In this document: one piece after another, positions 11,290 to 28,375 of the stretch
Layout: every line of letters begins with the position of its first letter
How positions within the stretch are numbered: position 1 is the first letter of the stretch
Assembly (NCBI RefSeq): GCF_003634575.1
Contig: NZ_RBLJ01000005.1
Coordinates: 310,001 to 374,000 of the forward strand
Direction of reading: 5' to 3'
Length of the DNA stretch: 64,000 nt
Source: Photorhabdus asymbiotica
GTDB lineage: Bacteria > Pseudomonadota > Gammaproteobacteria > Enterobacterales > Enterobacteriaceae
Notes under the pieces: generated by a model
What the model was told of the DNA's origin: nothing
Seen by the model: the letters and a program-made list of their open reading frames with translations, nothing else
Databases searched by the model: none
Position numbers and translations under genes: made by a program

Positions 11290-11451
11290 TTATTTTTTAT
11301 TCTCACCAATCGCATAAGTCTTAGATTTATCTTTACCAGATGTCTGTAGGTTACGGCGCGTTTTCAATCCACCTTTCTTCCAATCTGGCCATTGTTCAAC
11401 TATTTTACTCGCTTCACTTAAATAAGCTAAAAACTCCTCTTTCTTAGTCAT
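11290..11451 (-). CDS. Small protein coupled to the dCTP deaminase (53 aa)
   Basis: This short gene encodes 53 residues beginning MTKKEEFLAYLSEASKIVEQ and ending in a basic tail (KDKSKTYAIGENKK). Its ATG overlaps the deaminase TGA by four bases (ATGA), so translation is coupled. The N-terminal half looks helical and contains WPDWKK; the second half is rich in Lys, Arg and Thr. No known domain is recognised. The tight overlap argues for a role in the deaminase system, for example a regulator or cofactor. The known AvcI regulator of AvcD is an RNA, so this protein would be something different. Confidence 0.65.
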   Translation of the reverse strand: MTKKEEFLAYLSEASKIVEQWPDWKKGGLKTRRNLQTSGKDKSKTYAIGENKK

Positions 11452-12899
11452 TTCTTTAACTCCTTTATTAATCTATCTACATTAGCTGCTGATTCGGTTT
11501 CTTTCTCTATATAAGATAATGATAGCATCTTCATTCTGAGTTTTCCATCTCTCCTATCCCAATTAAGAGTTTTACCCTCTTTATTTTTTCTTTTGATTTT
11601 ATAACCTACTCCTAGATTTATAGAGAATAAATTAAAGAAACAACGAGGCCCAACCCCCACAAATGGCTCAAAAATTACTTTATTGTCATCTACCCCAGGA
11701 GTTGAAATAGAATCAGGATGAAAATCAAAGGCTTTACTTTTAGGATAAGGTTCAATATATACAACTCGTTTTATACCACTGGCAACGATATGTTTTGCAC
11801 AATTATGACATGGAAATGTAGTACAATATAATATTCCATTATAAGTACTAATATTACTTCTTGCACATGCTAAGATAGCTTCCATTTCAGCATGCACAAC
11901 CCTCCCATACTCGGTAATATCCTTAATCTTACTTCTCAGAAGATATTCTTTAAATTCTTCCTTTTTTTCATCTTTGACATCTTTAAGTATATCTTCAATA
12001 ATTAATCTTTTCTCTTTCGCATTTGAATCCTCACCTACTTTATAATCTCTACCATTTTTAGCATCTTCAATTTCATCTCCTACATATTCAGGCCAATATA
12101 ATCCTCCGCCAAATTTTGGTACATCGTTAGCCCCAGTTGATATGATATTTTTATTTTTCGTTAATACAGCCCCAACCTGACGGGAAAGATCTCCAGATCG
12201 TAATGAAGCAGAAAAAGCCATGAACATAGCATATTCATCAAAGGTCGGAGTAACATATGGATTACCAAAAATAAGATCCAATATTCTCCATATACTATTG
12301 TCGGCCCTATTTTTATTCCCATCATAACTTATAAAGAAATCTGATAACTCATAAGTATCTCTTGTATGCTGTCCCCACTCATTTCCCTCATTGGAATCAC
12401 GACTAATCAACTCCTTAGCCTTTTCCCTATCAATGCCTTTATCAACAGTAAGATTCTTTAATCTTTGAGACTCACTAGTATATACACCTATCAGGAAAAA
12501 TCCATTCGCATAAATCTCCCTTAATGCATTGACCTCATCTGGATGTTTGAGAGAATTTATAATATATGCTCTCCTAATAGATGGTATTGGTAAGGAATTC
12601 TTCTTCTCTCTTCTTTTATTTATTTCGGCTACCGCAGCCAATGCCAATATAGAGTTATCCTGACTAACCTCTCTTAGATTATTACCCTCTGTCATTAAAC
12701 AACTTATCTTTTCATAATTATCCTTTGTTAAGGGAATATCCCTTAATACTGAGATAATTTCAGAAGATATTCTTACCTCTTGTACATCATACCGGAACGC
12801 ATTAAGTTTCTGTGTTATAGAATCTTTAATTATTTCTAAATCGGTTCCTACAGCACCAACCAGCCCAATAACGACTTCGGAATCAAAATCACAAGGCAT
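11448..12899 (-). CDS. Anti-phage dCTP/dCMP deaminase (AvcD-type)
   Basis: The protein has two parts. The N-terminal half carries an atypical P-loop-like segment (VVIGLVGAVGTDLEIIKDSI), resembling the kinase-like domain of AvcD / anti-phage dCTP deaminases. The C-terminal half is a zinc-dependent cytidine deaminase domain with HAEMEAILAC (His ligand, catalytic Glu) and TTFPCHNCAKH (the two Cys ligands). These defence enzymes deplete dCTP during phage infection. The frame extends to a GTG at 12956, but the ATG at 12899 has GGAGG eight bases upstream, giving 483 residues; the longer 502-residue form remains possible. It forms an operon with the 53-codon gene. Confidence 0.85.
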   Translation of the reverse strand: MPCDFDSEVVIGLVGAVGTDLEIIKDSITQKLNAFRYDVQEVRISSEIISVLRDIPLTKDNYEKISCLMTEGNNLREVSQDNSILALAAVAEINKRREKKNSLPIPSIRRAYIINSLKHPDEVNALREIYANGFFLIGVYTSESQRLKNLTVDKGIDREKAKELISRDSNEGNEWGQHTRDTYELSDFFISYDGNKNRADNSIWRILDLIFGNPYVTPTFDEYAMFMAFSASLRSGDLSRQVGAVLTKNKNIISTGANDVPKFGGGLYWPEYVGDEIEDAKNGRDYKVGEDSNAKEKRLIIEDILKDVKDEKKEEFKEYLLRSKIKDITEYGRVVHAEMEAILACARSNISTYNGILYCTTFPCHNCAKHIVASGIKRVVYIEPYPKSKAFDFHPDSISTPGVDDNKVIFEPFVGVGPRCFFNLFSINLGVGYKIKRKNKEGKTLNWDRRDGKLRMKMLSLSYIEKETESAANVDRLIKELKK

Positions 12900-13340
12900 C
12901 TGGTTATCCTCCGATAAATATGTTTTATTTATATCAATCATGTGAATTATTTCCACCTATTATTGTTTTATCTTATTTATTAAAAATAACAATTAATTAC
13001 AGATAATGATATCTATAGAAAATAAATGATAACATTAAAATAAATATAATTTCGAAACCAAATAAAAATCCATTTAATTACTCTATCCTATATATCCTAG
13101 ACTAAAATATTTTTTCAACATTAAGTTGGAGAAATAGTAATCAATATCACATAATTTATTTTCTATAATAAATTCACACTCCTTTTATTGTGATCAAGAT
13201 TAAACTATATTTCTCAATTATGTATATATCACTATACTATTGTTAGTGGAAATCAAGGTAATTTATTTGGCAATTTTAGATTTCAAGTCACTGAAAATAG
13301 CTCACATAATCATTTAAAGTGCATAAGCTATGTAAAAAAA
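12900..13340. other. AT-rich intergenic region upstream of the deaminase gene
   Basis: No protein gene was found between the deaminase start and the terminator of the first hydrolase gene. In Vibrio the AvcD deaminase is controlled by a small RNA (AvcI) encoded just upstream, so this is where an equivalent RNA would be expected. The sequence is very AT-rich and no AvcI-like structure could be recognised by eye. Confidence 0.4.
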
Positions 13341-13474: not shown

Positions 13475-15064
13475 TTAAACCGGGACAAACTCTATCTTCC
13501 AACAACGTGAGTCATTGACATAAAGATGAGGTTTATTTGTATCAGAGTCCAATTTAAAATCAATAATCAGCTCTGTAGCCTGAGAAAAATAACTATTCTC
13601 GTAAGCCCATCGTAAGGCTTCTTTTTTTCCGGGCAAGACAACCGCATCGAGATAAAGCTTATCACCGGATGATTCAATATTAATAATCGATTCTGTTTCG
13701 TGATTATAATAGCGACCTGATAATCGCTGAATATCGATATCAGCTTTATCGATCATCTTTTTTAAATAAAAAATGTTGCCATTTTCATCAATCTGTTCCA
13801 ATGCGATAACTTCATTATTGCCAATAACAGCTCTAAATCGGATGTCTCCCCCTTTCTCCTGGAATGTCCCATCAGCATTAAAAATAATCGGATTACCTTT
13901 CTCGAATAAATTACCTAATAAATAGCAATCTTCCTTGGTAATAATATAAGGATAGGGATCTTCTCCTTTAAACATACCGGTGATATCAATATTACTGGTT
14001 CGGCAATGTTCTGGCTCAGTTATATCAGTGTTAAATAATATATTCAGACATTGATTAGTAAATTCAACGGTATTAATACCTGTTGCAGCCGTAATCACGA
14101 TACCTAATTTAATATCAGGTAAAACACAAACCTCAGCTTTAAAACCACCATAAGAACCATCGTGCCGTATTATCTTTTGCCCTTCACGTTGGCTGATCAT
14201 CAAACCGTAAGCATAATTGTTACGATTTCCATTGGTTAAATTTGGTGTACGGGATAAATGAGGCAACATATCCCGAACAATCGATGGTGAATAAAATGCT
14301 TTCATCCAGCGACATAAATCACTTACTGTAGAACGAAGCCCCGCACTACCTATAGTTGAATCGTTGTGATCCGATCTTTTCCATTGTTTTGCATCTTCGT
14401 TATAAACATAACCTATCGCCCGATCATCGATAATCTCAGTAACCTCATCATAGAAAGAAGTATTATTCATCTTTAATGGAATAAAAATATTTTCTTTCGC
14501 ATATTCTCTTAACGATTTACCGGAAACTACTTTGATAATTTCTGCCAGCAAATTATAGCCCGTATTGCTATAACGAAAGCGTTCTCCCGGTGTGAAATTA
14601 AGTGCCTGTTGCCGTTGAATTAGTTTTCTCAATAAACCCATACTGCGGTGGTCAAAATCTGAGTTTTTACCTGCCAAGCCATAAGGGACATATTTATCTC
14701 GTAACCCACTGGTATGATGAATAAGATGCTCAATGGTAATATCAGAGAAACGCGTTGGGAAATAATCCACATATTTCCCAACTTTATCTTTAACGTTGAG
14801 CTTTCCAGCTTTTTCCAGCAAAGCAATACAAAAAGCCGTGAATTGTTTTGAAACACTCGCCATATAGAATTTCGTATTTGGGGTTATCGCAGCAGAATGT
14901 TCAATACTGGCTTGCCCAATATAGCGCTTATAAATGGTTTCATTTTCATGAGTAACAGCAACCGCGAGAGCGCCGCCATTTTTCTTATTTTCAATATCAA
15001 TTAAATTGTCTATTTTCTTCAGAAGAAACTTAATATTATCTCTAGATATCGTTAATGCCATCAT
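13475..15064 (-). CDS. Serine beta-lactamase-fold hydrolase, tandem copy 1
   Basis: This 529-residue protein has an N-terminal class C beta-lactamase / D-aminopeptidase domain (residues about 1-350) and a C-terminal beta-rich, lipocalin-like half. It shows the three active-site elements: SVSK (SxxK nucleophile) in FYMASVSKQFTAF, YSN in FRYSNTGYNLL, and HDG replacing the KTG triad. There is no signal peptide, so it should act in the cytosol. This architecture recalls CubicO-type D-peptidases such as Pab87. The start has AAGGAAA upstream. It is the most divergent downstream member of four paralogues; the substrate is unknown. Confidence 0.82.
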   Translation of the reverse strand: MMALTISRDNIKFLLKKIDNLIDIENKKNGGALAVAVTHENETIYKRYIGQASIEHSAAITPNTKFYMASVSKQFTAFCIALLEKAGKLNVKDKVGKYVDYFPTRFSDITIEHLIHHTSGLRDKYVPYGLAGKNSDFDHRSMGLLRKLIQRQQALNFTPGERFRYSNTGYNLLAEIIKVVSGKSLREYAKENIFIPLKMNNTSFYDEVTEIIDDRAIGYVYNEDAKQWKRSDHNDSTIGSAGLRSTVSDLCRWMKAFYSPSIVRDMLPHLSRTPNLTNGNRNNYAYGLMISQREGQKIIRHDGSYGGFKAEVCVLPDIKLGIVITAATGINTVEFTNQCLNILFNTDITEPEHCRTSNIDITGMFKGEDPYPYIITKEDCYLLGNLFEKGNPIIFNADGTFQEKGGDIRFRAVIGNNEVIALEQIDENGNIFYLKKMIDKADIDIQRLSGRYYNHETESIINIESSGDKLYLDAVVLPGKKEALRWAYENSYFSQATELIIDFKLDSDTNKPHLYVNDSRCWKIEFVPV

Positions 15065-15090
15065 GAATTTCCTTATTTAAGGTTATCGAA

Positions 15091-15121
15091 CAGGCAGAAT
15101 ATAAATCGATCGTTCTGCCTG
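15091..15121 (-). terminator. Hairpin after hydrolase copy 2
   Basis: CAGGCAGAA ... TTCTGCCTG forms a 9-bp perfect stem 83 bases after the stop of copy 2. It has the same sequence family as the hairpins after the other copies and the one at 25403. A strong T run is missing, so termination is likely but not certain. Confidence 0.55.
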
Positions 15122-15203
15122 GAACAAAATGTATCTAATAAAAAAATATCTTTAAACGCTCAATAACATTAATTCTGTTCTGCTAAGGTAATATTATCTC
15201 CTA

Positions 15204-16796
15204 TCAATTAAATTGCACGAGCTCTACATTCCAACAGCGTGAATCATTGATATAGAGACGAGGCTTATTAGTATCAGAATCTAATTCAAAATCAATAATC
15301 AGTTCAGTACTGGGGGAAAAATAACTATTCCCGTAAATCCGCCGTAAGACTTCTTTCTTCCCAGGATAGACAATTCCATCAATATAAATTCCATTGTCAG
15401 AAGAAGAAATAAATAGCATTGCTTCTGCTTCATGACTATAATAACGTCCTGACAATAGCTGAATATCAACACCCCCATCATCAACTCGCTTTTTAAGATA
15501 AAAGATATTGCCATTTTCATCAATCTGCTCCAATGCAATAACACTGTCATTTTCAATGATAGGTCTGAATCGGATTTTACCGCCTTGTTCTTGGAATGTA
15601 CCGTCAGAGTTAAAAATAATCGGGTTACCTTTTTCGAATAAATTACCTAACAAATAAGTATCTTCCTTGGTAATAATATAAGGATAAGGTTCTATTCCTC
15701 GGAAAATACCCGTGATATCGATATCATTGGTTAAGCAATACGGTTCTTCTCGCTCAATATCGGTATGAAACAATATATCAATATGCTGCTCCACCCATCC
15801 AGTAACTTCAGCGCCTGTTGCAGCGGTAATCGCAATACCTAATTTAGCATCCGGTAAAATACAAACATGAGATTTAAACCCAGTATAGGAACCACCGTGT
15901 TGTATTATCTTTTGCCCTTCGCGTTGGCTAATCATCAAACCGTAAGCATAATTGTTACGATTGCCATTGGTTAAATCTGGTGTACGGGATAATTGAGGCA
16001 ATAGATCCTGCACAATGGATGGCGAATAAAAGGCTCTCATCCAACGACACAAATCATTTACCGTAGAATGCAACCCTGAACCACCAACCACCACATCGTT
16101 GAGATCATCTCTTCTCCACTGATGCGACTCTTCGTTATAAGCGTAACCCATCGCTCGATCAGGAATAATCTCAGTGATGTCATCATAGAAAAAGGTATCT
16201 TTCATCTTTAATGGGACGAAAACATTTTCTTCCGCGTATTTCCTTAACGATTTACCCGAAACTACCCTGACTATTTCTGCCAGTAAATTATAGCCCGTAT
16301 TACTATAGAGATAATATTCTCCAGGCGTAAAATTAAGTGCCTGTTGCCGTTGCATCAGTTTTCTCACCAACTCAATATGGCGGTGGTCAAAGTCTGAATT
16401 TTTACCTGCCAGACTATAAAATAAAAACTCATCCCGTAACCCACTGGTATGATGAATAAGATGTTCAATGGTAATATCAGAAAAATGCGCGGGGAAATAA
16501 TCCAAATATTGTCCAACTTTATCCTTAATGCAGAGCTTTCCTTCTTTCTCCAACAGGGCAATACAAAAAGCCGCAAATTGTTTTGAAACACTCGCCAAAT
16601 AGAATTTAGTATTAGGTTTTACAGCTACAGAATGTTCAATATCCGCTTTCCCAATATGGCGCTGATAAATGATTTTATTTCCGTGAGTAACCGCAACCGC
16701 GAGTGCTCCCCCCTTTTTTTTATTCTCAATATTAACCAATTCGTCTATTTTATTGATAAACAACTTAATTTTATCTGTAGATATCGTCGATTCCAT
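15204..16796 (-). CDS. Serine beta-lactamase-fold hydrolase, tandem copy 2
   Basis: This 530-residue paralogue has Ser69-Val-Ser-Lys72 (SxxK), Tyr164-Ser-Asn166 and His300-Gly-Gly302 as the catalytic elements of the beta-lactamase fold, then a C-terminal beta-rich half of about 180 residues. The N-terminus (MESTISTDKIKLFINKIDEL) lacks any export signal. Over roughly the first 290 residues it is almost identical to copy 3, then diverges sharply, which suggests gene conversion or recent duplication. It has AAGGAAAC before the ATG and an ERIC element 40 bases upstream. Cytosolic esterase or D-amino-acid peptidase activity is an inference from the fold. Confidence 0.82.
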   Translation of the reverse strand: MESTISTDKIKLFINKIDELVNIENKKKGGALAVAVTHGNKIIYQRHIGKADIEHSVAVKPNTKFYLASVSKQFAAFCIALLEKEGKLCIKDKVGQYLDYFPAHFSDITIEHLIHHTSGLRDEFLFYSLAGKNSDFDHRHIELVRKLMQRQQALNFTPGEYYLYSNTGYNLLAEIVRVVSGKSLRKYAEENVFVPLKMKDTFFYDDITEIIPDRAMGYAYNEESHQWRRDDLNDVVVGGSGLHSTVNDLCRWMRAFYSPSIVQDLLPQLSRTPDLTNGNRNNYAYGLMISQREGQKIIQHGGSYTGFKSHVCILPDAKLGIAITAATGAEVTGWVEQHIDILFHTDIEREEPYCLTNDIDITGIFRGIEPYPYIITKEDTYLLGNLFEKGNPIIFNSDGTFQEQGGKIRFRPIIENDSVIALEQIDENGNIFYLKKRVDDGGVDIQLLSGRYYSHEAEAMLFISSSDNGIYIDGIVYPGKKEVLRRIYGNSYFSPSTELIIDFELDSDTNKPRLYINDSRCWNVELVQFN

Positions 16797-16836
16797 TATT
16801 AGTTTCCTTATTTAATTTTATACAAACAGGTATATA

Positions 16837-16963
16837 TATACCCTATGGATTTCAAGATTCATCGCGGCGGCAAGGGAGCGAATCCCCGGGAGCATAGCAA
16901 ACTCTGTGACCGGGGTGAGTGAGTGCAGCCAACAAAGAGGCAACTTGAAAGATAACGGGTATA
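16837..16963. repeat. ERIC element 1 (127 bp)
   Basis: This full-length enterobacterial repetitive intergenic consensus element is bounded by TATACCC and GGGTATA and contains the conserved CCCCGGGAGCATAG / GACCGGGGTGAG core. It lies between hydrolase copies 2 and 3. Confidence 0.92.
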
Positions 16964-17004
16964 TGCAATTTGAGCGCCTTACGTATATGCAGGCAGTCCC
17001 GTAA

Positions 17005-17036
17005 GGCAGAACATAAATATTTCAAGAGTATCTGCC
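17005..17036 (-). terminator. Hairpin after hydrolase copy 3
   Basis: GGCAGA ... TCTGCC is a shortened relative of the CAGGCAGAA/TTCTGCCTG hairpin family, 50 bases after the stop of copy 3. The stem is only six pairs, so its activity is uncertain. Confidence 0.4.
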
Positions 17037-17085
17037 ATCCTGCCAGAACAACACAGTTATCAATGTATGTTTACTGTCATCTCAA

Positions 17086-18681
17086 TCAAAACGCGACAAA
17101 TTCTATATTCCAGCAACGACCATTACTGAGATAAAGCTGAGGTTCATTCGTTTCAGGGTCCAATGCAAAATCAATAATAAGCTTTGTGCTAGGAGAAAAA
17201 TAACTATTCCCATAAACCCGATGTAAGACTTCTTTTCTTTCAGGAGAAATAATTGCATCGATATAAAGCTCATCACCAGAAGCTGCAACAGTGAGCACAG
17301 CTTCTGTTTCGTGGTTATAATAATGCCCTAACAGTAGCTGGATATCGGCACCACCATCATCAATCATCTTATCTAAATAAAAAACATTGCCATTTTCATT
17401 AATCTGCTCCAATGCAATAACATTGTCATTTTCAATAACAGGTCTGAACCGAATTTTCCCATCTTCCGCTTGGAATGTACCATCAGAGTTAAAGATAATC
17501 GGGTTACCTTTTTCGAATAAATTACCTAATAAATAGCAATCTTCTTTGGTGATAATATAAGGGTAAGGTTGTAATCCTTTAAAAATACCAGTAATATCGG
17601 CATCACTGGTCCGACAAGGTTGTTTTTCTGGTTTAGTATCATTAGGATTAAATAATACATCAAAACACTGTTGAACAAGTTTAGAGACATTAGTATTCAT
17701 TGCAGAAGTAACAGCAATACCTAATTCAGCATCAGGTAAAATACAAACTTCGGATCTAAAGCCACCATAACCACCATCATGTCGTATTATCTTTTGCCCT
17801 TCACGTTGGTTAATCGCAAAACCGTAAGCATAATTGTTACGATTGCCATTGGTTAAATCTGGCGTACGGGATAATTGAGGCCACAGATCCTGAACAATAG
17901 ATGGCGAATAAAACGCTTTCATCCAGCTACACAAATCATTTACCGTAGAATACAGCCCTGAACCACCAACCACCACATCGTTGAGATCATCTCTTCTCCA
18001 CTGATGCGACTCTTCGTTATAAGCGTAACCCATCGCACGATCAGGAATAATCTCAGTGATATCATCATAGAAAAAGGTATCTTTCATCTTTAATGGAATG
18101 AAAACATTTTCTTCCGCATATTTTCTCAACGATTTACCCGAAACTACGCTGACTATTTCCGCCAGTAAATTATAGCCCGTGTTGCTATAGAGGTAATATT
18201 CCCCTGGAGTGAAGTTCAGTGAATATTGCCGTTGGGTCAGTTTTCTCACCAACTCAATATGGCGGTGGTCAAAGTCTGAATTTTTACCTGCCAGGCTATA
18301 AAGTAAAAATTCATCCCGTAACCCACTGGTATGATGAACAAGATGTTCAATGGTAATATCAGAAAAATGTGCGGGGAAATAATCCAAATATTGTCCAACT
18401 TTATCTTTAACGCAGAGCTTTCCTTCTTTCTCCAACAGGGCAATACAAAAAGCCGCAAATTGTTTTGAAACACTCGCCAAATAGAATTTAGTATTAGGTT
18501 TTACAGCTACAGAATGTTCAATATCCGCTTTCCCAATATGGCGCTGATAAATGATTTTATTTCCGTGAGTAACCGCAACCGCGAGTGCTCCCCCCTTTTT
18601 CTTATTCTCAATATTAATCAATTCGTCTATTTTATTGAGAAACAATTTAATCTTATCTGTCGATATCGTCGATTCCATCAT
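17086..18681 (-). CDS. Serine beta-lactamase-fold hydrolase, tandem copy 3
   Basis: This 531-residue paralogue carries the same elements as copy 2: SVSK, YSN and HDG (IIRHDGGYGGF). Its N-terminal 290 residues are nearly identical to copy 2, whereas the segment around HDGGYGGF resembles copy 1 more than copy 2, giving a mosaic pattern. It has no signal peptide. AAGGAAG precedes the ATG, and a Fur-like box lies about 102 bases upstream. The substrate is unknown; it is not expected to be a true beta-lactamase, because it is cytosolic and has a long C-terminal beta domain. Confidence 0.82.
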   Translation of the reverse strand: MMESTISTDKIKLFLNKIDELINIENKKKGGALAVAVTHGNKIIYQRHIGKADIEHSVAVKPNTKFYLASVSKQFAAFCIALLEKEGKLCVKDKVGQYLDYFPAHFSDITIEHLVHHTSGLRDEFLLYSLAGKNSDFDHRHIELVRKLTQRQYSLNFTPGEYYLYSNTGYNLLAEIVSVVSGKSLRKYAEENVFIPLKMKDTFFYDDITEIIPDRAMGYAYNEESHQWRRDDLNDVVVGGSGLYSTVNDLCSWMKAFYSPSIVQDLWPQLSRTPDLTNGNRNNYAYGFAINQREGQKIIRHDGGYGGFRSEVCILPDAELGIAVTSAMNTNVSKLVQQCFDVLFNPNDTKPEKQPCRTSDADITGIFKGLQPYPYIITKEDCYLLGNLFEKGNPIIFNSDGTFQAEDGKIRFRPVIENDNVIALEQINENGNVFYLDKMIDDGGADIQLLLGHYYNHETEAVLTVAASGDELYIDAIISPERKEVLHRVYGNSYFSPSTKLIIDFALDPETNEPQLYLSNGRCWNIEFVAF

Positions 18682-18782
18682 TAACTTCCTTATTTAAAAT
18701 TATAAAATAGAACATATATATTCAGTTTAATAGCAATACATATGTGGGCAGTACTGTAAGACGTAAACAGGAAATATCCAAG

Positions 18783-18797
18783 TGATAACGATTATCA
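18783..18797. promoter_or_regulatory. Fur-like box upstream of copy 3
   Basis: TGATAACGATTATCA matches the 7-1-7 Fur consensus TGATAATNATTATCA at all but one position. It lies 102 bases upstream of the copy 3 start, inside a promoter-region repeat shared with copy 4. Confidence 0.5.
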
Positions 18798-18852
18798 TTT
18801 AATATGTGAGCGGCAATATAAAGTAACCATGGGAACTGATGCTTACGAAAAA

Positions 18853-18884
18853 CAGGCAGAACATAAATATAATAGTTCTACCTG
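18853..18884 (-). terminator. Hairpin after hydrolase copy 4
   Basis: CAGGCAGAAC ... GTTCTACCTG pairs with one mismatch, 17 bases after the copy 4 stop. It belongs to the shared hairpin family. Confidence 0.55.
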
Positions 18885-18901
18885 ATTTATCACTTTATAA
18901 G

Positions 18902-20491
18902 TTAAACTGCAACAAATTCTACCTTCCAGCAACGCGAATCACTGATATATAGGCTATGTTTATTAGCATTAGGATCAAATGCAAAATCAATAATAAGTTC
19001 AGTTCTCGGGGAGAAATAACTATTCCCATGAATCCGTCGCAAAACTTCTTTTTTACTAGGATAGATAATCCCACCAATAGCAATCCCATCACCAGATGAT
19101 ATAATATCAACCATCGCCTCTGTTTCGTGACTATAATATTTCCCTAATAATAGCTTAATATCGATATTCTCTTCATCTTTCATTTTTTTAAAATAAAAAA
19201 CGTTACCATTTTCATCAATCTTTTCCAACGCGATAACGCTGTTATTTTCAACAATGGGTCTGAACTTAATTACACCTCCTTGCTCTTGGAATGTACCGTC
19301 AACATTAAAGATGATTGGTTTACCTTCTTCTAACAAATTACTTAACAAATAAACATCTTCTTTGGTAATAATATAAGGATAAGACTCTATCCCTCGAAAA
19401 ATACCAGTGATATCAATATCACTAGTTAGGCAATGCGGTTTTTCTGGCTTAATACCAGTGTTAAACAATATATCAATATTCTTATCCACCCATTTAGCAA
19501 CATTAACATTTGTTGCAGAAGTAATCGCGATGCCTAATTTAGCATCTGGTAAAATAACAATATTAGCTCTGAAGCCAGCATAAGTACCACTGTGGTGTAT
19601 TATCCTTTGCCCTTCGCGTTGGTCGATATCCAAACCGTAAGCATACTTATTTCGATTGCCATTAGTTAAATCTGGTGTACGGGATAATTGAGGCAACAGC
19701 TCCTGAACAATAGATGGCGAATAAAATGCCCTAATCCAACGACACAAGTCATTCACAGTGGAATGAACCGCTGCACTACCTACCACAGAATTATTGATAT
19801 CGCTTCTTATCCACTGGTGTGAATCTTCGTTATAAGTGTAACCCATTGCTCGATTAGGGATAATCTCAGTTATATCGTCACAAATAAGGGTATCTTTCAT
19901 CTTTAATGGGGCAAAAACATTTTCTTCTGCATATTTCCTCAGCGTCTGACCTGAAACCACGCTGATTATTTCCCCCAGAAAATGATAGCCCGTGTTGCTA
20001 TAAAGACTATATTCCCCTGGAGTAAAGCTAAGTTCCTGTTGCCTGTGGGCCAGTTTTCTGACTAAATCAGCATTGCAGTAGTCAAAATCTGAGTTTTTAC
20101 CTGCCAGATTATAAAGTAAAAATATATCCCGTAACCCGCTGGTATGGTGAATAAGATGCTCAATAGTAATATCAGAAAAACGCGCAGGAAAATCATCCAA
20201 ATATTTCCCGACCTTATCCTTGACGCTGAGCTTTCCTTCTTTCTCCAACAAAGCAATACAAAAAGCCGTGAATTGTTTTGAGGCACTCGCCAAATAGAAT
20301 TTAGTATCAGGCTGTATAGCAACAGCATGTTCAATGCTAGCTTGTCCGATATGACGCTGATAAATCGTTTCATCACCGTGGGTAACAGCAACCGCGAGAG
20401 CACCACCCTTTTTTTTATCTTCAATATTAACCAGTTCGTCTATTTTCTTAATAAACAATTTAATATTATCTGTAGATATCGCTGATTCCAT
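18902..20491 (-). CDS. Serine beta-lactamase-fold hydrolase, tandem copy 4
   Basis: This 529-residue paralogue is the upstream-most of the array and is more diverged than copies 2 and 3. The active-site elements persist: SASK (in YLASASKQF), YSN (LYSNTGYHFLGEI) and HSG (IIHHSGTYAGF). The Val-to-Ala change inside SxxK leaves Ser and Lys intact. It has no export signal. A GGGA ribosome-binding site precedes the ATG, and a degenerate Fur-like box lies 109 bases upstream. All four copies share the N-terminal opening (IS..NIKLF or similar), so they descend from one gene. Confidence 0.82.
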   Translation of the reverse strand: MESAISTDNIKLFIKKIDELVNIEDKKKGGALAVAVTHGDETIYQRHIGQASIEHAVAIQPDTKFYLASASKQFTAFCIALLEKEGKLSVKDKVGKYLDDFPARFSDITIEHLIHHTSGLRDIFLLYNLAGKNSDFDYCNADLVRKLAHRQQELSFTPGEYSLYSNTGYHFLGEIISVVSGQTLRKYAEENVFAPLKMKDTLICDDITEIIPNRAMGYTYNEDSHQWIRSDINNSVVGSAAVHSTVNDLCRWIRAFYSPSIVQELLPQLSRTPDLTNGNRNKYAYGLDIDQREGQRIIHHSGTYAGFRANIVILPDAKLGIAITSATNVNVAKWVDKNIDILFNTGIKPEKPHCLTSDIDITGIFRGIESYPYIITKEDVYLLSNLLEEGKPIIFNVDGTFQEQGGVIKFRPIVENNSVIALEKIDENGNVFYFKKMKDEENIDIKLLLGKYYSHETEAMVDIISSGDGIAIGGIIYPSKKEVLRRIHGNSYFSPRTELIIDFAFDPNANKHSLYISDSRCWKVEFVAV

Positions 20492-20706: not shown

Positions 20707-21588
20707 TTATTCAGTAGAAAGCGATATTTTCTTTGTACGAAAGACCAAGATTAGCCCAGACAAGATAGCAACCATACCCAGCAAACTTAAATCAGGCAAC
20801 GAATTTCCCAAAAACAAATAGTCCATTACAGCCGTAACCCCAGGAACAAGATAAAACAGACTTGTCACATTCACTAAATTACCCGCTTGAATAAGCCGGT
20901 AAAGTAATAATTGAGCCACAACAGAAATGACTAATCCAAGCCATAACAACGAAATAATAAAGCCAGGCACCAGCTGAAATTCAAAAGGCTGAAAAGGAAC
21001 AAATAGTAAGCAAAGCAGTAGGCTAACACCATATTGTAGAGGTAAAACTACAGAAGGAGCTTGATGAATTCGTTTCTGTAAAATCGCACCGATACTCATA
21101 CAAGCCAGTGCAACCAAAGCAAAAGTAATACCGGCCAGAGAGAATCTGGACAGCACAAGACTTTGATACACTACTAATATCAAACCCAGCAGCGCTAACA
21201 ATAAACCCGCCAAACGTACAGCCGAAAAACGGCGCTCGATGACTAACAATGTAATAATCGGTTGAATTCCCATTACTGTAGCCAGAACTCCGGGGGTAAT
21301 CCCATTGTCCAACGCAAAAAAATAACAAATAGAATAACCACCTATTAGCAGAACGCCGGTACTGGCTACTTGTTTACGCGTACCCTGTTCAGGCAAGAAA
21401 TGGCCCTTACGCCCGAATAATAATCCCAAAAATATCAAAAAAATAAGCGCAACAGCAAAACGCATTAAGAGAATCGCAAATGCGGTACTATGGTCAAGTC
21501 CCCACCGCGAAAAAATCGCACCACTGCTCCACAATAAAACAAACAGCAAAGTCGAGCCATAAGAGACCCATAGGGCTTTAGAAATCAT
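20707..21588 (-). CDS. EamA/DMT-superfamily exporter
   Basis: This hydrophobic protein of about 293 residues has ten predicted transmembrane helices arranged as two EamA repeats (LLFVLLWSSGAIFSRWGLD in repeat 1, ALVALACMSIGAILQKR opening repeat 2). The family exports amino acids and small metabolites across the inner membrane. The ATG at 21588 has AGGTG upstream; a GTG nine bases earlier is an alternative. It follows the amidinotransferase, desaturase and oxygenase genes in the same direction after a 317-base gap. That makes it a candidate exporter or self-resistance gene for their product, although it may have its own promoter. Confidence 0.82.
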   Translation of the reverse strand: MISKALWVSYGSTLLFVLLWSSGAIFSRWGLDHSTAFAILLMRFAVALIFLIFLGLLFGRKGHFLPEQGTRKQVASTGVLLIGGYSICYFFALDNGITPGVLATVMGIQPIITLLVIERRFSAVRLAGLLLALLGLILVVYQSLVLSRFSLAGITFALVALACMSIGAILQKRIHQAPSVVLPLQYGVSLLLCLLFVPFQPFEFQLVPGFIISLLWLGLVISVVAQLLLYRLIQAGNLVNVTSLFYLVPGVTAVMDYLFLGNSLPDLSLLGMVAILSGLILVFRTKKISLSTE

Positions 21589-21905
21589 CGGAATCACACC
21601 TATCTTACGTTTTAACTAAGCCAGTACACAAATCTGGCAACACATTGCATGCAAACCATCTCTTAGAAACAAGAGTATTACACAGTTATATATAGATAAT
21701 AAAGGAAGTGGCAGTGGAGCAAGGGGAGAAGTGAAAAAATGCATGTACAATCTACTGCTGTTAATGCTAAGCCAGTAGATGCAATCAGTGTACATGCAAG
21801 TAATAACATAGCATTCGTCTTATAATATTCTAAATTAATCATTTAAATGTAGATGCATATCTCGCTATGGTCAAATATCTGTGGGACTATTTTCAATATC
21901 ATGAT
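21589..21905. other. Intergenic region between transporter and oxygenase genes
   Basis: No open frame with a ribosome-binding site was seen. The gap is large enough for a separate promoter for the EamA transporter gene, so co-transcription with the oxygenase is not assured. Confidence 0.4.
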
Positions 21906-22781
21906 TTATGTCCACCAGACAAGATCGCCATTTTGCTGCACTCCCATAAAACAAGTCACAAGCAATCGTCGTTCTGGTGCAGATATAGCATTACCATTCA
22001 ATACTGCATGTACTAAATTTCCATTCAGCAATACCAAATCCCCCGCCTTAATATTGATCACCATGTTTGCATGATTTTCCAGTAATTCTACTGGATAGGG
22101 AAAACCACTGTAAGTTAAACCAAGGGCACTACGTGATTGGTTGTCGGGTTGAATATTCCATACTTTTAATTGCCCCCCATTTTGGGGAACATCAGCGTAA
22201 AAATTTACCGCCATGACACGATTAATTTGTTGGACCTCAAAATCGCTCTGACGTGGATCGCTCAGCTGTGCAAGATCATCATGAGGTAATAACAGGAATT
22301 CACCGAAATTATTCCAATACACAATTTTTACATTACCCGCAGCAACACCATGATACATAGCAGGACGCGTTACCTGAGGGTTATCCCCACTAAAATGTGT
22401 TATTTGCTCTATGAAACGATCAATTGGATTGATCGTATCCTGGAAAATCTCACTAATTGCCGGGCGGAAATTTTCTACTTCTTCTATATATTGGCGGGTA
22501 TTTTTTTCAATATGGGATGCCCCGATAAAATATCCCTCAACACCATCAATACCATCAATACCATCTCCGTAACGGGGAGTAAGTGCTGAAGAACGCCAAA
22601 AATTCTCAATTATTTTCTTTCTTTGTTCTGGTAAAAGAAAATGGTTAATCCGACAAACGGCAAGATGACCATCCAGAAGATCAGAAACTGCATTCATAGA
22701 TATATTATTTGATGTTTCGTATACAATAAATTCTGACTTTGCCAGCTTTGTTCCCCTAATGCCGAATTTTTCTTGCATCAT
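21906..22781 (-). CDS. 2-oxoglutarate/Fe(II)-dependent oxygenase
   Basis: This 291-residue protein has a jelly-roll 2OG-Fe(II) oxygenase pattern. The iron triad is visible as HDD (in FLLLPHDDLAQL), and the distal His is in NGNLVHAVLNG. The 2OG-binding Arg is in APERRLLVTCFMG. The intact Asp in HxD indicates a hydroxylase or desaturase rather than a halogenase. AAGGAG lies six bases before the ATG. It starts 50 bases after the desaturase stop and so probably shares the transcript with the amidinotransferase. The substrate could be a free or guanidino-modified amino acid; this is inference. Confidence 0.75.
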   Translation of the reverse strand: MMQEKFGIRGTKLAKSEFIVYETSNNISMNAVSDLLDGHLAVCRINHFLLPEQRKKIIENFWRSSALTPRYGDGIDGIDGVEGYFIGASHIEKNTRQYIEEVENFRPAISEIFQDTINPIDRFIEQITHFSGDNPQVTRPAMYHGVAAGNVKIVYWNNFGEFLLLPHDDLAQLSDPRQSDFEVQQINRVMAVNFYADVPQNGGQLKVWNIQPDNQSRSALGLTYSGFPYPVELLENHANMVINIKAGDLVLLNGNLVHAVLNGNAISAPERRLLVTCFMGVQQNGDLVWWT

Positions 22782-22831
22782 AGCAGACTCCTTCGTCAGA
22801 CTCTGTATAAAGCTTATATAATTAACTGGAA

Positions 22832-23788
22832 CTATTTTTTATTTATAGACCTATGCAATAAAGGTCTACGCTTGTGTAAAAAACCCAATATTGCAGGTAC
22901 TGGGCTGACAATCCTTTCCTGTGCAGAAAGCTTGGTTGAATATTTTTGACGTAGATCAGGTAACGACTTCCAATGAGTGTTGCCTGAAATATGATGTTCC
23001 TGATGATAACCATCATTAAATGTCAATAAATTATAAATTCGTCCATAATAACTGACTGAATTTGCAAACCTGTTCTCCGGCTGAGCCCCATAATGCTCAT
23101 AATAGTTTTGTATATTGACCAGAACAAAGGAAAAATAGAGAGCAGGTAAATAGCAAAATAAAACCCATTTCCAGGATAAGGTGAATAAAATAATAACCCA
23201 CACCGCCTGAAATAATCGATCTAATCTCAATTGTAATAACTCTTCAACTTTCCTCTTCCTATCCATCGAAAGGAGTTTTTCATATCCTTTATCAGCTTTA
23301 CTAAGCGGTTTTTGCCAAATAAATATAGCCCAGAACATACGAACAAAACTGTTATATAGAGTGAATATTCCACCAAGGGCAGAATAGTTCCAAAGAGTAC
23401 TGTGCTCCCCTATCTCTTTTCCATTTATAAAAGTAGAAGAAGTATCTTGTGGTCCACTTTCACCAACTCCCCGGTCGTTATTATATTTATGGTGATTACG
23501 AACATGGGACAAATGATAAGCCTGTACAGACTGCCCAATATTCATTGAATTCAGGATAGACACAAACATATTCACGGTTCGAGAAACAAACCAGGGAGTA
23601 TGGCTAAAAAAATGTGATATCACTATTATGTTGTAGGTTGTCATCAGTGTCAGCAACACAATGTTGCCCAACCAACCCATAATAGTGAAATTATCCCAAT
23701 ATACAACCAGAGTAACAGTGGCTATCGTATGCAAGATACTTAATATAAACATTACCGAATCCCAATAAGAATATCGCCAGATAGCCAT
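22832..23788 (-). CDS. Membrane fatty-acid-desaturase-family di-iron enzyme
   Basis: This 318-residue integral membrane protein has the three histidine boxes of the fatty acid desaturase/hydroxylase family: HFFSH near residue 57, HVRNHH (HxxxHH type) near residue 93, and HQEHH near residue 262. Four or more hydrophobic helices surround them. It starts eight bases after the amidinotransferase stop with AGGAG before the ATG, so the two are one operon. A DesI-like desaturase similarly accompanies the amidinotransferase AmtA in the Pseudomonas phaseolotoxin cluster. The substrate, a lipid or an amino-acid derivative, is not deducible. Confidence 0.82.
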   Translation of the reverse strand: MAIWRYSYWDSVMFILSILHTIATVTLVVYWDNFTIMGWLGNIVLLTLMTTYNIIVISHFFSHTPWFVSRTVNMFVSILNSMNIGQSVQAYHLSHVRNHHKYNNDRGVGESGPQDTSSTFINGKEIGEHSTLWNYSALGGIFTLYNSFVRMFWAIFIWQKPLSKADKGYEKLLSMDRKRKVEELLQLRLDRLFQAVWVIILFTLSWKWVLFCYLPALYFSFVLVNIQNYYEHYGAQPENRFANSVSYYGRIYNLLTFNDGYHQEHHISGNTHWKSLPDLRQKYSTKLSAQERIVSPVPAILGFLHKRRPLLHRSINKK

Positions 23789-23796
23789 AGCTGCTC

Positions 23797-24897
23797 CTAG
23801 TTAAAATAAGACTGTAAAATTCCGCGTCGCCTTACATCCACTGTTGCGCAATGGAAAGAACCCCCGAAGGAGTTAAAATTCCTGAAATTACATGGAATCG
23901 GAGTAAAGCCCCAACGTTTCATCGCCGCAATCATTGGTTCATCTTGCTTTTCAACAATGACTCGTTTTTCATCCAACATCAGAATATTCATGTTGATCCA
24001 TTTACTGGTCATATACAGCGGATGCTCATCAGGAATAACCGGTTCAGGGGCACATAACACATCCCATCCTTTAAATAGTTCAGGAATCTTTAACACCTTT
24101 TCTGGATTAATCAGCAGTTTTCCAGGTGCCATCGGGAAAAACGTCGCATCAATGTGCATAGGGCTATCATCGTTAAATTCAAAAACGTGAATACGATAAT
24201 CATCACCTATATGACGACGAAGCCATTCGATACCAAATTCATTAGTCACATGGCTCTTTTGCGCAATAATATCTCGCCCACAACGGATAAAGTCCGCAGC
24301 ATCAAATGTCGGTTCAAATTCAGTCACCGCAAGACGAGTACTATCCTTACCATCAGGCTTATACCATTCAAAATCATATTGTTCATCTATTAACTGTGGT
24401 TTTGGCCCTGAGCTCCATCTCGCTCCTTGCTTAAAGTAATCTTTAAGTAAAGTTTTATATGCCGCGGTTTCAAAATAACGGGAACGCCATGCCAGCGGGC
24501 ATTCAATAATATCATCACCAATAACTAACAGGGAATCACGAGGCATTGCACAATATAGTCCTGTGCTGCTCCAACCGGGCGCCCCAAATACCTGAGATTG
24601 ATCCTGAGGCTCAGGTCGACGTACTTTAACACCTTCACTTTCGAGAATATGAACAAACTCTTCTAACTCTCTGGACGCTGCCTCAATCCGCTCTTTTGGA
24701 AATGACCGGCCAGCATTCCGATGAAAAGTCTCAATCTGATTCGGTGGTAATACCGGCTCTATCGCCATATGCCAGCCAGGAAATCTGGCACCATCAACAG
24801 CACCAACAATCACCTCTTCGAGTGGGTCCCATTCGTTAAAAGAATTAACTGGGGAAGAAATCTTACTATCACTATCTATTAAATTTGGATCAAGCAT
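23797..24897 (-). CDS. Arginine:glycine amidinotransferase-like enzyme
   Basis: This 366-residue enzyme belongs to the AGAT family, which moves the amidino group of arginine to an amine acceptor. The triad is complete: Asp199 in EPTFDAADFIRCGRDI, His248 in PMHIDATF and Cys350 in GGSFHCATVDVRRRG, all strikingly like vertebrate AGAT (GATM). N-terminal FNEWDPLEEVIVGAVDGARFP is also typical. The ATG at 24897 has AGGAGAAG upstream and is preferred to the in-frame codon at 24933. Possible products are guanidinoacetate, homoarginine or another guanidino precursor. Its desaturase and oxygenase neighbours point to specialised metabolism. Confidence 0.85.
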   Translation of the reverse strand: MLDPNLIDSDSKISSPVNSFNEWDPLEEVIVGAVDGARFPGWHMAIEPVLPPNQIETFHRNAGRSFPKERIEAASRELEEFVHILESEGVKVRRPEPQDQSQVFGAPGWSSTGLYCAMPRDSLLVIGDDIIECPLAWRSRYFETAAYKTLLKDYFKQGARWSSGPKPQLIDEQYDFEWYKPDGKDSTRLAVTEFEPTFDAADFIRCGRDIIAQKSHVTNEFGIEWLRRHIGDDYRIHVFEFNDDSPMHIDATFFPMAPGKLLINPEKVLKIPELFKGWDVLCAPEPVIPDEHPLYMTSKWINMNILMLDEKRVIVEKQDEPMIAAMKRWGFTPIPCNFRNFNSFGGSFHCATVDVRRRGILQSYFN

Positions 24898-25402
24898 GTC
24901 TTCTCCTGATATCTGAATATTATGTCGCCTCAAAACTATATTAACTGTATTAATTGCGACCCTAACACCATCAATAACGACTCCTTAGTTTAAATATGCA
25001 GTCATGCGTAATATTATTAGATTACGTATCTTTCTGTTTAAAAATTCAATAACTATGACTTCCTCATGGTTAATAAATTTAGTCAAAGATCACAAAATTG
25101 GTTATTTAAAATAGTAAAAAAAATGTTAAAAATTTTATTTTTTCACCACAAGACATTAAATGACAGTAATAATATACCGAAACAACTTTATATATAAACC
25201 TAACTCAACGTTATAAACTTGTCTGCATGCAATAATATATGGACATTTAAATTTGTAAAGGAATTAAATCTAAATATTATAAAACCAAGATAATGTTATT
25301 ATTTGCAATATCATTATTACTGTTAAAACATTACCACAAATAAACCACAATTTATTTATAAGATATTATTTTTCAAAATTATATAATTTACTCCAATAGA
25401 AA
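24898..25402. other. AT-rich promoter region of the amidinotransferase operon
   Basis: No coding potential was seen. The region is very AT-rich and must hold the promoter of the amidinotransferase-desaturase-oxygenase transcript. No recognisable operator could be assigned. Confidence 0.4.
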
Positions 25403-25574: not shown

Positions 25575-25880
25575 TTAAATCTCTACACCTACTATATATT
25601 TTATCTTAGTAAGATTGCTTTTCGCAATTTTTACTTTCACGTCTAGTTTTTCATGAAGAACACGTAAAAGAGAAAGATAGAGCAGCACAATCTTCTCTTT
25701 ATCTTTATCTCCATCAACCACTAATAGATGAAAATCATCAACAACACCTAAAATATTCAAACTAACAATGACTGAACTGGGTGACAGAATATCAATATTG
25801 ACTTTCTCTACCTTACCTACCCTAAGCTCATCATCTACAATCAGCTCTTCATGTAACAAAATATCTTTCTTAATCATCAT
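25575..25880 (-). CDS. Hypothetical protein (101 aa)
   Basis: The start at 25880 (MMIKKDILLHEEL) has GGAG nine bases upstream and is preferred to the ATG at 25895. The protein alternates short charged and hydrophobic beta-like stretches (LRVGKVEKVNIDI, SSVIVSLNILGVVDDF, VKVKIAKSNLTKIKYIVG). There is no signal peptide, membrane helix or recognised motif. It stands alone in AT-rich DNA and is followed by the same hairpin as the hydrolase array. I do not recognise the family. Confidence 0.5.
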   Translation of the reverse strand: MMIKKDILLHEELIVDDELRVGKVEKVNIDILSPSSVIVSLNILGVVDDFHLLVVDGDKDKEKIVLLYLSLLRVLHEKLDVKVKIAKSNLTKIKYIVGVEI

Positions 25881-26379
25881 AATTATAAACTCCACAATTT
25901 AATATAACCAATTGATAAATAACTAATATTATTCCAACATACAAACAATTAGCTATTTATCTTGCCCATATAAAATTACAACCATTTTCACTAGAAAATA
26001 AGTGCCTATCAGGAATTTATCCAATATTTAGATAATATATACAGCATTTTTGATGCCATATTGATGCTTTATCTAATACATATAACTATAGATGCCATTA
26101 ATGTATTGTCAATAAAATAAAAAAATAAATTTAATTAATTTAAAATCAATGTTTTATTAGACAAAATAAATAAAAAAGATACTACATCCTGTCATGGATA
26201 TAATATCTCGTTAATTTTTTCCATCGAACATAATGACAGATATAAATGATAATGAGAAATAACTCTGCTATTTCCCTCTACGATATAAAAGGTAATATCT
26301 CAAAAACAATAAACAGTTTAACATTATATTTCATGGAAATTACAAGCGGGATATTAATCATGTCATTATTTATACGAAG
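25881..26379. other. AT-rich intergenic region left of ERIC element 2
   Basis: The stretch is extremely AT-rich. A short open frame from 26246 runs into the ERIC element but has no convincing ribosome-binding site, so no gene is called. Confidence 0.4.
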
Positions 26380-28280: not shown

Positions 28281-28375
28281 TGGCGGAAGATCACAGGAGT
28301 CGAACCTGCCAAAGACCGCTGGCGGCCTCATCTGGATTTGAAGTCCAGCCACCCCACCGGGGACGATGATCTTCC
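28281..28375 (-). tRNA. selC: tRNA-Sec (TCA anticodon)
   Basis: This 95-base selenocysteine tRNA reads GGAAGATCATCG at its 5-prime end and CGATCTTCC-like pairing at the 3-prime end, with an encoded CCA (complement of 28281-28283). The anticodon loop sequence GGACTTCAAATCC places TCA at 28339-28341, and the long variable arm and extended acceptor stem resemble E. coli SelC. It decodes UGA as selenocysteine with SelB, implying the cell makes selenoproteins. selC is a well-known integration site for genomic islands. Confidence 0.96.

Follow-up and report, generated by a model that had tools for sequence, protein, structure and literature searches.

What does a bacterium make with an amidinotransferase, a membrane desaturase-fold enzyme, a 2-oxoglutarate (2OG)/Fe(II) oxygenase and an exporter encoded next to each other? 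The question is raised by a cluster in Photorhabdus asymbiotica, located in a 64,000-nucleotide stretch of contig NZ_RBLJ01000005.1 (assembly GCF_003634575.1, positions 310,001 to 374,000), hereafter called the window, with coordinates counted from its first letter. An earlier note, made from the letters of this stretch alone, had proposed that the cluster guanidinylates, oxidises and exports a metabolite, a logic that appears to fit the gene set. We consider it probable, with some reserve, that the cluster was acquired horizontally and is self-contained, serving to make and export an oxidised guanidino amino acid. Its components, referred to below as AT, DES, OG and EamA, are as follows.

23797..24897, minus strand: AT, L-arginine-dependent amidinotransferase, 366 amino acid residues (D199/H248/C350, K267)
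22832..23788, minus strand: DES, membrane FA_desaturase-fold protein (PF00487), 318 residues (three His boxes, Pfam)
21906..22781, minus strand: OG, 2OG/Fe(II) oxygenase, 291 residues, HilA/WelO5 relative (H167-x-D169, H258, R272)
20707..21597, minus strand: EamA (DMT) exporter, 293-296 residues (Pfam EamA; export role predicted)
22782..23796, minus strand: AT-DES and DES-OG junctions at both ends of DES (8 and 50 bases)

The AT start was placed at the ATG at 24897, which by eye has an AGGAG in front; the alternative TTG at 24933, given by the open reading frame tool, has no AGGAG-like site in front by the same inspection. EamA starts at GTG 21597 according to the tool or at ATG 21588, leaving 308 or 317 bases to OG. 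Open reading frames and Pfam matches thus recover the four-gene, single-strand set of the earlier note, and its gaps of 8, 50 and 317 bases are correct, the last one for the ATG start. Short junctions and the same order in other phyla are consistent with a predicted single AT-DES-OG transcript. Neither a promoter scan (21 against a mean of 19.4) nor a terminator scan (5 against a mean of 3.9) gave an excess over shuffled sequences. In the 29 of 51 window open reading frames that were scanned with Pfam (120 residues or longer), we detected no domains of nonribosomal peptide synthetases (NRPS) or polyketide synthases (PKS), in agreement with what the note had stated, and no amino acid ligase or carbamoyltransferase families. 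Condensation domains gave 49 matches in the genome, none of them on the contig that carries the window.

The gene set is conserved across phyla

A single pattern-based search of the genome collection, not an exhaustive one, yielded 78 AT loci. The order and strand of AT, DES and OG are kept in Photorhabdus, Xenorhabdus, Streptomyces, Streptosporangium, Micromonospora, Salinispora, Rhodococcus and two Acidobacteria, with OG displaced by several kb in three loci (L041, L045 and L057). EamA is downstream of AT in the window and upstream of it in Xenorhabdus, where the genes are found in no fewer than two chromosomal contexts; in one of these a gene of the phage integrase family lies next to them. 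A quick tree was built from 72 of 79 AT sequences, seven having been dropped as near-copies or partial contexts. It places Photorhabdus and Xenorhabdus in one group (support by the approximate likelihood ratio test SH-aLRT, 100), joined to actinobacterial ATs (97), a topology that fits horizontal transfer. The pairwise distances within AT, DES and OG are mutually correlated (Spearman 0.79, 0.80 and 0.86, for pairs that are not independent).

Co-occurrence points in the same direction. DES was found at E<=1e-30 in four of 392 genomes of the family, with AT adjacent in each. Closer to the window we compared 42 genomes, namely 12 of Photorhabdus (including that of the window) and 30 of a second genus, that of genome G023, which we take as Xenorhabdus on the grounds of its AT identity and of the triple copy in G419. 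Seventeen of them carry DES and all seventeen have an AT ortholog (broken in G416). Cross-phylum order and this co-occurrence uphold the earlier claim that the genes form one cluster. Synteny in relatives, suggested there as a check, is kept across phyla, with EamA near all NRPS-free loci that have both DES and OG, but it breaks inside the genus, where four of the 12 Photorhabdus genomes have an intact AT without intact DES, OG and a close EamA. No description of the cluster was found in the open-access literature searched, a scope that excludes most subscription papers, so that publication elsewhere is possible. This is a real, mobile gene set; biosynthesis of guanidino amino acids is of a known kind, while for this combination of enzymes and for the split described next we found no description.

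Loci with DES and OG carry either an exporter or peptide synthetase domains

The EamA protein of the window scores 74.4 bits against the Pfam model PF00892 (cut-off 28.2), in two stretches, which places it in this family. Six-frame translations of the 78 loci (L017-L094) were searched for EamA and for NRPS adenylation (A) domains, and the outcome was counted on the 27 loci with DES (match longer than 150 residues) and OG (longer than 50 residues), with flanks of at most 10 kb. All 20 loci without an A domain have EamA, as opposed to none of the seven with A domains. Among the other 51 loci EamA is found in four, all cyanobacterial and without DES or OG, whereas 22 AT-only and two DES-only loci show neither EamA nor NRPS. 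A second hidden Markov model, for which 20 EamA proteins were taken from the genomes of the seven NRPS-bearing loci, returned the same 24 EamA loci. The background in 12 genomes was 8-34 EamA domain matches per genome (usually two per gene), and we therefore estimate that an EamA gene would be expected within about 21 kb in a few per cent of cases. One locus limits the split: in L037 a gene that looks like a PKS, judging by eye from its first residues, lies about 6 kb downstream of OG.

The exporters fall into three sequence families, one in Photorhabdus and Xenorhabdus, one in four Streptomyces-type loci and one in Streptomyces CB03234, and their separateness suggests that EamA may have been recruited to the module repeatedly. 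The same enzymes thus seem to serve two fates, free export or incorporation into a peptide. If true, the split provides a simple genomic rule for telling a secreted non-protein amino acid from one that is built into a peptide.

Two further observations concern these loci. In the assembly of Xenorhabdus hominickii the module is found on three contigs whose flanks resemble each other (L029, L030 and L031), which may reflect either a triplication or an assembly artefact. In cyanobacteria, four ATs (L079, L080, L081 and L093; 57-59% identity to that of the window) have EamA just upstream on the opposite strand, without DES or OG.

The amidinotransferase belongs to the AGAT family

The homology of AT to SxtG, HsvA, human arginine:glycine amidinotransferase (AGAT) and StrB1 extends over almost the entire protein; phmmer searches of the PDB gave E-values of 2.7e-130, 2.2e-121 and 2.2e-121 for the first three. 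It has no Pfam match at E 0.01. In the alignment with human AGAT, the Asp, His and Cys residues D199, H248 and C350 are all present at the positions of D254, H303 and C407, which we take to be their catalytic equivalents. Full-length homology together with these residues makes AT a member of the AGAT family. The triad named in the earlier note was correctly placed by this alignment; its likeness to vertebrate AGAT does not predict a glycine acceptor, because SxtG and HsvA, which use other acceptors, match as well or better.

R322 of human AGAT, presumably a carboxylate-binding residue, corresponds to K267 of AT. This position is Lys or Arg in all 39 ATs associated with DES or OG (a set that includes L022 and L024, which have DES remnants only), Trp in HsvA and Phe in SxtG. 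A basic residue here favours an amino acid as the probable acceptor. The other two positions considered, N300 and M302, are active-site residues of the human enzyme according to the sections of PMC3684758 that deal with them. Their equivalents in the window are S245 and M247. The former is Ser in Photorhabdus, Asn in the Xenorhabdus orthologues and His in most Actinobacteria; the latter is kept.

A second AT, about 50% identical to that of the window, is present in two Photorhabdus genomes, as L013 in G001 and as L015 and L016 in G002, where it is spread over two overlapping open frames. The L013 protein (52% identity) has an HsvA-like Trp at the R322 position.

The two putative oxidases

DES scores 112 bits against FA_desaturase (PF00487, cut-off 29.7), and its His boxes (H59-x3-H63, H95-x3-H99-H100 and H262-x2-H265-H266) recur unchanged in all 23 sequences compared. 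Score and boxes make it a member of the FA_desaturase superfamily and bear out the three-His-box membrane desaturase described in the note. Among NCBIfam models it shows weak matches to a carotenoid hydroxylase. The guanitoxin arginine hydroxylase is desaturase-like; this parallel had been set aside when a heme enzyme family was named for it, and NCBIfam hits revived it. Two actinobacterial clusters with AT and DES contain a second desaturase-fold gene that matches the GntB model (6.4e-70 and 1.1e-65; both of the two tested, out of six loci with that gene family), so that oxidation of arginine-like substrates by desaturase-fold enzymes would be plausible there. Rhizobial DES relatives have an arginase gene and two small EamA genes alongside in the one record opened; at 27-32% identity they were judged too distant to count as evidence.

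OG belongs to the Pfam WelO5 family (PF22814; 38 bits, cut-off 27), a model that 10 of 18 OG homologues also match at E<=1e-3. Its best NCBIfam match is HilA, an L-isoleucine dioxygenase (NF041274, 1e-32), and this model matches all 18 homologues (best 9.9e-38). The H-x-D motif (H-D-D in the window), the distal His and the Arg are invariant in 21 of 21 homologues. In WelO5/BesD-type halogenases HxG replaces HxD, and halogenation by OG was rejected on that ground. OG is, as far as its motifs indicate, a hydroxylase-type enzyme and a relative of a free-amino-acid oxygenase. Five rhizobial records with more distant OGs (29-32% identity) were found, and in both of those opened OG adjoins ectB; another distant OG lies within an NRPS cluster of Streptomyces tendae. 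For OG and DES, neither sequence nor profile searches of the PDB yielded a convincing match.

A proposed route to an oxidised guanidino amino acid

In the route that we propose, AT would accept the amidino group of L-arginine on its Cys and hand it to a free amino acid at the side-chain amine, with ornithine as by-product. The acceptor would most likely be L-lysine and the product L-homoarginine. Lysine is the likeliest single acceptor because lysine-type ATs are described as making homoarginine in portions of PMC3927611 and PMC12833800, and because of what a review (PMC12283262) states in part about photoditritide and adenylation codes, as set out below. DES, acting as a membrane di-iron enzyme, would then oxidise a C-H bond, by hydroxylation or desaturation, in this guanidino amino acid or in a precursor of it; OG would hydroxylate another carbon, and EamA would export the free amino acid. 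In other phyla, AT-DES-OG without an exporter and beside NRPS genes could supply the same kind of amino acid as a peptide building block.

The product had been left in the earlier note as either a small tailored amino acid or a lipid conjugate. The HilA-like OG, the basic residue at the carboxylate position and the NRPS neighbours elsewhere favour an amino acid; we found no support for a lipid product. If the proposal is true, an oxidised guanidino amino acid would be within ready reach of four genes spanning about 4 kb; compounds of this class include inhibitors of enzymes and building blocks for peptides. A membrane enzyme of the desaturase fold and an oxygenase resembling HilA would then be placed on a guanidino substrate. 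We advance only tentatively the wider proposal that AT-DES-OG is a cassette of three enzymes for a homoarginine-type amino acid oxidised twice, secreted by EamA as a bioactive compound in Photorhabdus, Xenorhabdus and some Streptomyces or loaded by NRPSs in other Actinobacteria and in Acidobacteria, with the nematode symbionts having obtained the secreted form by horizontal transfer.

Distribution in Photorhabdus and Xenorhabdus

AT is intact in all 12 Photorhabdus genomes, DES has its full length in eight and OG in seven. EamA is present at 90% identity or more in eight, and G009 has a match of 57% at another place. Seven genomes have all four genes at full length, six of them contiguously. 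In genome G007 the full AT is on a separate contig and DES-OG-EamA follows the 3' remnant of another AT; in G002 OG is broken. The first 23-44 residues of DES remain behind AT in G001, G004, G009 and the full-AT locus of G007, from which we conclude that DES was lost secondarily. The ratio of nonsynonymous to synonymous substitution rates (dN/dS) for AT is 0.027-0.082 among five AT-only loci (L022-L025 and L027; 10 pairs) and 0.051-0.105 among five cluster-bearing loci (10 pairs). The second genus behaves differently. Ten of its 30 genomes have an AT ortholog (at least 77%), intact in eight and broken in G416 and G417; DES is found at E 1e-30 in nine, all with an AT ortholog, and adjoins AT in all eight genomes with an intact AT, being split by a stop in G419, with one stop reported in G428. 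There the set is inherited and decays together, whereas in Photorhabdus AT survives alone.

Adenylation codes and homoarginine

A cationic-looking code, DAESFGDIS in a Stachelhaus-type reading, occurs in seven AT loci, five of them with DES. The code DVESIGGVT, of the arginine/homoarginine type, is found in all 12 Photorhabdus genomes. In the relevant part of the review PMC12283262, homoarginine is listed with reference to photoditritide of Photorhabdus temperata, and an A domain with the code DVESIGGVTK is said to accept homoarginine as well. AT is a candidate source of homoarginine in a genus for which that part of the review cites a homoarginine peptide. As a separate observation, genome G000 encodes a three-module NRPS (L112, C1:924873-934805) with the codes DVESIGGVT, DVESIGAVT and DVESIGAVT, all of the arginine/homoarginine type.

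Weighing the proposal against its rivals

A number of observations weigh against a fixed four-step pathway ending in export. AT alone is kept in four of the 12 Photorhabdus genomes (G001, G003, G004 and G009), so the four genes need not form a single pathway. An AT that stays intact alone and under strong purifying selection points to a use outside the four-gene path, and a second use, possibly feeding NRPSs with an arginine/homoarginine code, is likely. Lys or Arg at the R322 position is also found in 34 of 40 other ATs and is therefore not specific for the acceptor. Window DES gave no match to the GntB model (NF041365, cut-off 380 bits) up to E 5, and four of the 21 homologues of DES reach E<=1e-3 against it, with scores far under the cut-off; OG scores 113.6 bits against a HilA cut-off of 500 and hence lies outside HilA proper. 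The export/NRPS split has weak points as well: 15 of the 20 EamA loci are from Photorhabdus or Xenorhabdus; within the 20, OG is broken in L017, AT is truncated in L094, and DES is split in L029-L031, three look-alike contigs from a single assembly; and in L056 and L058, which cover 13.6 and 3.0 kb and have DES without OG, neither EamA nor NRPS is seen. A-domain codes near the seven NRPS-bearing loci with DES and OG are mixed, being cationic-like in L043 and perhaps in L051 and L055, and not in L045 and L057. DVESIGGVT is foremost an arginine code in the corresponding part of PMC12283262 and is for that reason only a lead; as code and AT are both universal in the genus, the link between them does not discriminate.

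The first rival is a reading in which AT first of all supplies homoarginine or another guanidino amino acid to NRPSs encoded elsewhere, with DES-OG-EamA as a dispensable add-on for the same product. We regard it as rather unlikely, and yet it accounts for an AT that is intact in every Photorhabdus genome, against eight for DES and seven for OG, for purifying selection in the five AT-only loci and for the universal DVESIGGVT domains, and it agrees with the statements of the review (PMC12283262, in part) on photoditritide and code acceptance. In the second genus, in contrast, AT is not kept intact alone, DES being beside it in all eight genomes with an intact AT (split in one), and the code is mainly one for arginine. 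The proposed route can accommodate part of this, as the retention of AT after the loss of DES-OG-EamA suggests that its direct product would be used elsewhere too, possibly as homoarginine for NRPSs.

Other assignments of AT are less probable still. Three findings would suit an AT of the arginine:glycine type, which makes guanidinoacetate, with DES and OG acting on something else: human AGAT ranks among the nearest proteins of solved structure, M302 has its counterpart in AT, and the Xenorhabdus orthologues have Asn at the position of N300. We consider this improbable: SxtG has a better score than human AGAT and HsvA the same one, and both use other acceptors; Photorhabdus has Ser, and most Actinobacteria His, at the position of N300; the HilA relatives of OG use larger alpha-amino acids; and guanidinoacetate would offer little to two C-H oxidases. 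Guanidinylation of a polyamine in a phevamine-like path, which the HsvA match might suggest, is very improbable given K267 in place of the HsvA Trp, the neighbours DES, OG and EamA, and the separate Trp-bearing AT in Photorhabdus G001. Lastly, the stretch is AT-rich, the distance from the amidinotransferase gene to a tRNA-Sec gene is about 3.4 kb and tandem hydrolases of varying number are found alongside, as would be expected if the four genes were chance neighbours in a variable island. The same AT-DES-OG order across phyla, and the fact that none of the 42 genomes in the two genera has DES without an AT ortholog, led us to reject chance adjacency, which we consider hardly credible. The exported oxidised guanidino amino acid is our preferred interpretation.

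Flanking genes

The following features surround the cluster.

11448..12956, minus strand: anti-phage dCTP deaminase (NCBIfam, 489 bits against a cut-off of 400)
13475..20491, minus strand: four tandem serine hydrolases of the beta-lactamase/D-aminopeptidase fold, 529-531 residues (SxxK and YSN motifs; 65-82% mutual identity)
25575..25895, minus strand: 106-residue open reading frame (no Pfam or NCBIfam match at E 0.01)
28281..28375, minus strand: tRNA-Sec gene, beside the AT-rich stretch

The tandem hydrolases number from one to five copies in other Photorhabdus stretches. They directly follow AT in Photorhabdus loci without DES-OG-EamA, and in P. heterorhabditis (L018) a single one lies between AT and DES. 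None was found in the fetched Xenorhabdus stretches; together with the varying copy number, this led us to set them aside, as probably outside the pathway. The 106-residue frame is found upstream of AT, at 87-95% identity, in 10 of 12 fetched Photorhabdus loci. The tRNA-Sec gene is a possible island boundary.

Comparison with known systems

The phaseolotoxin cluster of Pseudomonas syringae (AmtA, PhtH, DesI) likewise combines an arginine:lysine amidinotransferase with two annotated fatty acid desaturase genes, as given in a section of PMC3927611. The comparison is one of annotated gene content. The window differs by its HilA-like OG and its EamA, and no ligase or carbamoyltransferase was recognised among the 29 of 51 open reading frames scanned. 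Among other amidinotransferases, HsvA of phevamine A and SxtG of saxitoxin biosynthesis belong to the same enzyme family and have similar scores, whereas window AT has K267 instead of the Trp that marks HsvA or the Phe of SxtG. The neighbours probably differ from those in the phevamine operon as well, the three genes adjoining window AT being DES, OG and EamA.

For the oxidases, HilA and the WelO5 family (PF22814) are the nearest reference points. OG matches both models, far under the cut-off for HilA and with HxD instead of the HxG of halogenases. GntB of guanitoxin biosynthesis, an L-arginine gamma-(S)-hydroxylase (NF041365), is by annotation a desaturase fold acting on arginine and has homologues in two related AT and DES clusters; window DES represents a separate subfamily. 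In the logic of its product, the proposed module can be compared with the gvg cluster for 4-formylaminooxyvinylglycine. There, the amidinotransferase gvgD is dispensable for the product, the operon table lists no desaturase and LysE takes the place of EamA, according to the sections of PMC8067088 concerned. The same sections describe what the two would share, a small exported non-protein amino acid from a cluster with an amidinotransferase and dedicated exporters.

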